A stretch of DNA of 64,000 nucleotides from Natranaerofaba carboxydovora (GTDB taxonomy: Bacteria > Bacillota > Natranaerobiia > Natranaerobiales > Natranaerofabaceae). The stretch lies in assembly GCF_022539405.1 (NCBI RefSeq), contig NZ_CP054394.1, positions 2,116,501 to 2,180,500 of the forward strand. The letters are read 5' to 3'. The notes beneath the pieces are model-generated. The model did no database searches and had not been told where the DNA came from. It was given only the letters and a program-made list of their open reading frames with translations. Below, piece by piece: positions 43,550-44,521 of the stretch (the first letter of the stretch is position 1; each line of letters begins with the position of its first letter). The translations under genes were made by a program, and so were the position numbers.

Positions 43550-43669
43550 AACTAGCGCCCCTTTCTTTTTGACATGGTCATAATAATGGCGAAAATAATT
43601 ATTTGCAATAGCGGAAATACTATGCAATAATATTATAACACAAGAACAAAATTTAAGGAGGGTCTACAA

Positions 43670-44020
43670 GTGCTAAAATTTTACTGCTACACTAAATGAA
43701 GAACCTGTCAAAAAGCGAAAGCGTGGCTTTCAGAAAAGGAAGTTGACTTCGATTATATTGATCTTGTTAAAAATCCACCAGAAGAAGACGAGTTAAAAAA
43801 CCTGGCAAAACTAGCAGGTGAAGAAACTGATAAGTTAGTAAATAAAAAAAGTAAGGCCTATAAAGAATTAGATATAGATGTTAATTCTCTTAATGAAGAT
43901 GATCTGGCAAAAACATTAACAAATAACCCAAAAGCAATTAAACGACCTATAATAACAGACGGTGAAAAAGCGCTAATAGGTTATGATGAAGATAAAATAA
44001 AAGATACTTTTTCAATCTAA
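43670..44020 (+). CDS. Spx/ArsC-family protein, probable selenoprotein (UxxC)
   Basis: Read through an in-frame TGA at 43697-43699 this is a 116-residue protein from a GTG with an AAGGAGGG site. It begins VLKFYCYTK-U-RTCQKAKAWL. In the Spx/ArsC family this place holds the catalytic Cys of the CxxC pair (positions 10 and 13), so the TGA replaces exactly the redox Cys and gives U10-x-x-C13. The downstream frame stays intact, with KSKAYKELDIDV and NPKAIKRPIITDGEKALIGY as in the family. A small hairpin follows the TGA. It is most likely a selenocysteine oxidoreductase rather than a broken gene. Confidence 0.75.
43717..43731 (+). promoter_or_regulatory. Candidate bacterial SECIS hairpin
   Basis: GAAAGC-GTG-GCTTTC, a 6-bp perfect stem with a loop that starts with G. 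It lies 23 bases after the TGA, within the distance normally seen for bacterial SECIS apical loops. Confidence 0.5.
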
Positions 44021-44035
44021 AAAAACAACGCTATA

Positions 44036-44521
44036 TTAATCTAAAAACCTTCCATCATCCTCAGATCCCTGAAGTCTATCAATATTTTTTTCTAGCCAGC
44101 CAATCCTTGTGTCTTTTCTTGCATCATATTCATTTACATAAGGTTTAATATCTAATAAAGGAGTTCCATCAACTACATCAATATCTCCAACATGGAGAAT
44201 ATTATCTTCTATGCCCATTAATTTTACAACAGAAAAACCTATAGGATTGGGCCTGGCAGGTCCTCTAACAGAAAATATTCCGCGTTCTTTGTCATCTAAG
44301 AAAGGAACACATCTTAATCTTGATCTTTTGATCAAATGAAAATGATATATAAGATAAATATGAGAAAAACCATCTAAGTCCTTAAGTCCATCCACATAAT
44401 CTGAAAACACCTCAACTTCGCCTTTGTAACCCATTGCAGCTGTAGGCTGTATTGGAGTCCCTTCCGGTTTTTTGTGAGGCGATCTAATAATCCCTATTGG
44501 ACTATATTCAATCTTTCTCAT
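44036..44521 (-). CDS. trmO: tRNA m6t6A37 methyltransferase TrmO
   Basis: 161 residues of the TsaA/YaeB fold: EYSPIGIIRSPHKKPEGTPI at the start, DGFSHIYLIYHFH, RGPARPNPIGFSVVKLMGIE and LLDIKPYVNEYD. This is the full set of TrmO motifs. It uses S-adenosylmethionine to N6-methylate t6A37 of tRNA-Thr (family knowledge). It converges with the selenoprotein gene, 15 bases apart, without a clear terminator between. Confidence 0.88.
   Translation of the reverse strand: MRKIEYSPIGIIRSPHKKPEGTPIQPTAAMGYKGEVEVFSDYVDGLKDLDGFSHIYLIYHFHLIKRSRLRCVPFLDDKERGIFSVRGPARPNPIGFSVVKLMGIEDNILHVGDIDVVDGTPLLDIKPYVNEYDARKDTRIGWLEKNIDRLQGSEDDGRFLD

Follow-up and report, generated by a model that had tools for sequence, protein, structure and literature searches.

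Within the window, i.e. the whole stretch of 64,000 nt analysed here from the genome of the anaerobic bacterium Natranaerofaba carboxydovora, one gene carries an in-frame TGA codon that almost certainly directs the insertion of selenocysteine (Sec). With a probability of roughly 0.65, we read its product as a Sec-containing selenol-thiol oxidoreductase of the ArsC/Spx superfamily, which stands apart from Spx and has the Sec-peroxiredoxin PrxU as its likeliest partner. On the level of sequence comparison, the conserved UGA, the hairpin, the insertion machinery, the fold and, in relatives, the linkage to prxU are established. The features are collected in Table 1.

Table 1. Features of the selenoprotein gene and loci related to it.
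Feature	Position	Strand	Description
Selenoprotein gene (predicted)	43670..44020	+	GTG start, 116 codons, one TGA, TAA stop; UxxC member of the ArsC/Spx superfamily with an additional conserved Cys6
Ribosome-binding site AAGGAGGG	43656..43663	+	about 7 nt 5' of the GTG start; direct sequence reading
TGA, predicted selenocysteine	43697..43699	+	residue 10, catalytic Cys position; 110-locus codon comparison, selA/B/C/D present
Cys13 (TGT)	43706..43708	+	resolving partner in the UxxC pair; conserved in 100% of 56 clade members
Predicted bacterial SECIS hairpin GAAAGC-GUG-GCUUUC	43717..43731	+	within the coding sequence; comparison and bSECIS rules
prxU, intact, with TGA (L213)	C1:2299826-2300452	-	same genome, outside the window
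prxU-linked loci			L066, L068, L069, L070, L080, L083, L088, L089, L093, L094, L096, L099, L107, L120
AmmeMemoRadiSam loci (include)			L038, L040, L067, L071, L092, L102, L103, L104, L110

The translated frame (VLKFYCYTKURTCQKAKAWL...IGYDEDKIKDTFSI) contains exactly one TGA. In an alignment covering residues 4–111 this codon pairs with Cys10 of Bacillus subtilis Spx, while Cys13 of the CxxC motif is intact. The otherwise open frame, the strong ribosome-binding site and the position of the TGA at the catalytic Cys, all of them claimed in the initial annotation, were found as described, and the alignment with Cys-containing Spx/ArsC homologues places Cys opposite the TGA. It was also right that standard gene finding misses the gene: the translation table 11 listing has no ORF of at least 60 aa at this place, therefore automatic annotation would overlook it, and gene callers would shorten the members of the whole clade to about nine residues. 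An open frame alone could also speak for a TGA that is read as another amino acid, through a change of the code or suppression. This is the least probable of all explanations weighed here: 9 of the window's 51 long ORFs terminate with TGA, and for Trp there are 151 TGG codons, hence the genetic code is unchanged, and all homologues lacking the TGA have Cys at codon 10.

Both other genomes of the class possess the gene (47% identity), each time with a single TGA. Among 398 genomes of the phylum, the 13 top-scoring matches other than the window gene itself come from many families and all have one TGA; the nearest relatives are 33–47% identical to the window protein and all have it at the same codon. 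Another 80 named loci came from scanning the genomes of 84,980 species; Syntrophomonadaceae and Desulfotomaculaceae are prominent among them. In 110 aligned loci codon 10 is TGA 69 times, TGT or TGC 41 times and never anything else. Since the TGA is kept in 69 loci of different families, it is neither a sequencing error nor a private mutation. A pseudogene or sequencing error would take a single base change from TGT or TGC to TGA in a Cys codon, and the hairpin of this one sequence is not significant; however, the recurrence of the same TGA, a conserved hairpin and a perfect co-occurrence with selB (both below) make this reading highly improbable. Random nonsense, sequencing error and code change are in practice excluded.

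From these data a Sec clade of 56 non-redundant sequences was gathered, all with TGA. Cys6, U10, Thr12, Cys13, Lys15 and Arg92 are invariant and Asn58 and Ser61 nearly so among these 56 members. In a tree built from 118 columns, in which many forks are unresolved, the clade does not fall on a single supported branch; at least 8 changes between Sec and Cys are needed, 4 of them forced by starred branches, with their direction and the number of gains being unsure.

The machinery for Sec insertion is encoded in the same genome. All four genes named in the initial annotation were found above their cut-offs, with scores of 70 bits for tRNA-Sec (selC), 377 for SelB, 585 for SelA and 401 for SelD, and selD has an in-frame TGA of its own. 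Across the phylum, selB is present above cut-off in 36 out of 36 TGA-bearing genomes versus 18 out of 44 Cys-only genomes (Fisher p 1.4e-9), a contrast that partly reflects lineage, as the Cys-only set includes many aerobic Bacilli. A single TGA-bearing genome devoid of selB would have weighed against the Sec assignment, and among the 36 there was none.

The G-loop hairpin noted 23 bases after the TGA was recovered as a 6 bp stem (43717–43722/43726–43731) closed by a GUG triloop, with 23 nt from UGA to loop. Taken alone it has -5.8 kcal/mol; a 50 nt stretch folds with -8.1 kcal/mol via an alternative 9 nt loop, which likewise begins with G. The rules for bacterial SECIS elements quoted in PMC13188914 call for a loop of 3–9 nt with G in the first two positions, a stem of 4–16 bp, a distance of 16–37 nt from the UGA and an MFE of at most -7.5. 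Either fold agrees with these rules in loop size, G position, stem and spacing, and the 50 nt fold also reaches the MFE. Over 50 nt the window hairpin is no better than shuffled sequences (z -0.33, single sequence) and an Rfam search of the window at the gathering threshold returned zero matches. As the window sequence alone is not significant, the significance of the hairpin rests on comparison.

A G[G/U]N triloop hairpin with a stem of 5–6 bp, located 20 or 23 nt after the UGA, is possible in 56 out of 56 clade members. In 49 of them it is the same stem with the loop GUG (once GUU), and in the other 7 the stem is displaced by 3 nt and closes on the loop GGC. All six pairs of the R1 stem are formed in 18 of 23 TGA representatives versus 0 of 50 Cys representatives, and a full 6 bp stem in either register occurs in 2 of 47 Cys homologues. 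When codons were randomised synonymously, excess structure was confined to TGA genes, and within them to the region 15–45 nt after the UGA (mean z -1.57 versus 0.06 for Cys genes; Mann-Whitney p 2.3e-6). This restriction to TGA genes distinguishes selection on the RNA from conservation of the protein. SelB charged with Sec-tRNA would bind the hairpin just 3' of the UGA, and insertion of Sec at residue 10 would yield a 116-residue protein of thioredoxin fold with a U10-x-x-C13 active site.

By score and predicted fold the window protein is a member of the ArsC/Spx superfamily. With Cys put at the TGA, it matches Pfam ArsC (PF03960) with an E value of 1.6e-22 (80.1 bits, gathering threshold 24), and its best NCBIfam match is TIGR01617 Spx/MgsR (103.6 bits, cut-off 75). 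An AlphaFold model based on 13 sequences has a pLDDT of 95 and is most similar to Spx (3gfk, TM 0.89), with ArsC-like structures matching as well. The initial assignment to an Spx/ArsC family holds for superfamily and fold, but finds no support in the sense of an Spx transcription factor.

Such a regulator, in which oxidation of the U10-C13 pair would act as a Sec redox switch permitting the binding of the RNA polymerase alpha C-terminal domain, is suggested by the TIGR01617 match, by Spx being the best structural match and by the fact that other ArsC/Spx-family genes were not found in the genome. The RpoA of the genome also keeps the segment RSYNCLKRAG, in which Tyr263 should presumably fall; since a segment of this type is kept, the RpoA check does not discriminate. 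Nor does the name TIGR01617, because this model also catches UxxV ArsC-like proteins; its label "Spx/MgsR RNA polymerase-binding regulatory protein" falls on oxidoreductase-like proteins and should be taken with caution. The models specific for Spx are not reached (NF002459, 92 of 123 bits; NF009210, 72 of 159; NF009885, 62 of 152). Moreover, residue 52 is Glu in the window protein, and it is Gly in 7% of the clade versus all five Spx sequences, in which Gly52 takes part in contacting the alpha C-terminal domain (PMC2801614). The protein also ends about 15 residues before Spx and lacks the Spx C-terminal tail. On score, Gly52 and length, filing as an Spx regulator was rejected, and we regard this role as unlikely.

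Slightly less likely still is that the protein works as an ArsC-type reductase with selenium, acting on arsenate or another small molecule. The Pfam ArsC match, the invariant Arg92 of the clade and the published UxxS arsenate reductase selenoproteins (PMC1088965) are in line with it, whereas the score against the arsenate reductase model TIGR00014 remains at 55.9 bits (cut-off 106), residue 60 is Lys, and ars genes are absent beside the window gene as well as among the recurrent neighbours. We favour a selenol-thiol oxidoreductase, and an oxidoreductase function, as judged from sequence, is probable. The Sec selenolate would attack an oxidised partner, and Cys13, perhaps assisted by Cys6, would resolve the mixed intermediate.

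A candidate for this partner comes from the genomic context of the relatives. In 14 out of 69 clade loci a prxU gene with its own TGA (TxxU, DFTFVUPTE) is located directly upstream on the same strand; one of these peroxiredoxins was tested in full length and passes the PrxU model, and a Fur/PerR-type gene is found nearby in some of the linked loci. PrxU is present in 9 of 16 clade genomes, and among the remaining genomes with selB in 8 of 39 (p 0.02). The window gene itself is solitary: an HD-GYP gene diverges from it, and a gene on the minus strand (44036–44521, 15 nt gap), which we take to be TrmO-like, converges on it. The link to prxU is therefore borrowed from relatives, with the intact prxU of N. 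carboxydovora located elsewhere in the genome, and PrxU as the partner is a tentative proposal with somewhat less than even chances. Other relatives neighbour AmmeMemoRadiSam genes instead, so the partner may differ: a radical SAM gene of this type lies near the Sec gene in 22 loci, in most of them upstream, and in 14 of these an AMMECR1-domain gene is located further up. Possibly the AmmeMemoRadiSam system is tied to the selenoprotein; we found no literature linking the two.

A bolder and still more tentative idea is that the clade constitutes a dedicated electron donor to PrxU, for which the ArsC/Spx fold was recruited in place of thioredoxin. If true, this would be an all-selenium relay for peroxide reduction (selenol to selenol) in strict anaerobes. 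As a precedent for a Sec protein of thioredoxin fold reducing a Sec enzyme one may take the selenoprotein glutaredoxin/MsrA pair of Clostridium (Kim 2011, as referred to in PMC13188914), although those proteins belong to other families and the partner here would be PrxU. The linkage to prxU offers a directly testable partner for the Sec-peroxiredoxin.

ArsC-like UxxC selenoproteins have been predicted earlier (PMC1794560, PMC2398784, PMC9312934, PMC13188914). The "arsenate reductase-like, UxxC" entry of PMC13188914 shares superfamily and motif with the window protein, and "arsenate reductase 2, cd03032, UxxC" of an ocean survey (PMC2398784) is probably of the same kind as the clade. NF041106 (ArsC_rel_Se_1, "ArsC family (seleno)protein") likewise describes UxxC members of the ArsC/Spx superfamily with Sec for the first Cys, but the present clade differs by its invariant extra Cys6 and the prxU linkage. 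With 39 bits, the window protein stays far below the cut-off of 85 and was therefore not filed under NF041106, and 0 of 398 genomes of the phylum rise above this cut-off. Consequently, we consider the clade a new group of members within a known kind of selenoprotein. With B. subtilis Spx (1z3e, 3gfk) the window protein shares the fold, the C10/C13 pair, Arg92 and about 31% identity, while Spx has Cys instead of Sec, besides the differences in Gly52 and length. The UxxS arsenate reductases of the TIGR00014 type from the Sargasso Sea (PMC1088965) resemble it in replacing the catalytic Cys within an ArsC fold by Sec, but the window protein is UxxC and well below that model's cut-off. The Sec clade is apparently undescribed, an earlier mention in two papers by Haft on new selenoprotein families (PMC9879109, PMC12013261) being possible. 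It adds a sizeable Sec clade of the ArsC/Spx superfamily for anaerobic Bacillota, outside the curated selenoprotein model.

Other genomes yielded a further 20 ArsC-like loci with Sec, which are more distant (UxxV, UxxA, UxxC, UxxS). These TGA-bearing genes (L166–L185) of other Bacillota have motifs such as YPRUSTV, YPSUTSA, YPNUSTA and CYPRUTTC; the second Cys is absent in some, and a G-first triloop hairpin follows the TGA in most. In one genome, two such genes are located about 2.7 kb from each other (L170, G359 C145:12015-16466).
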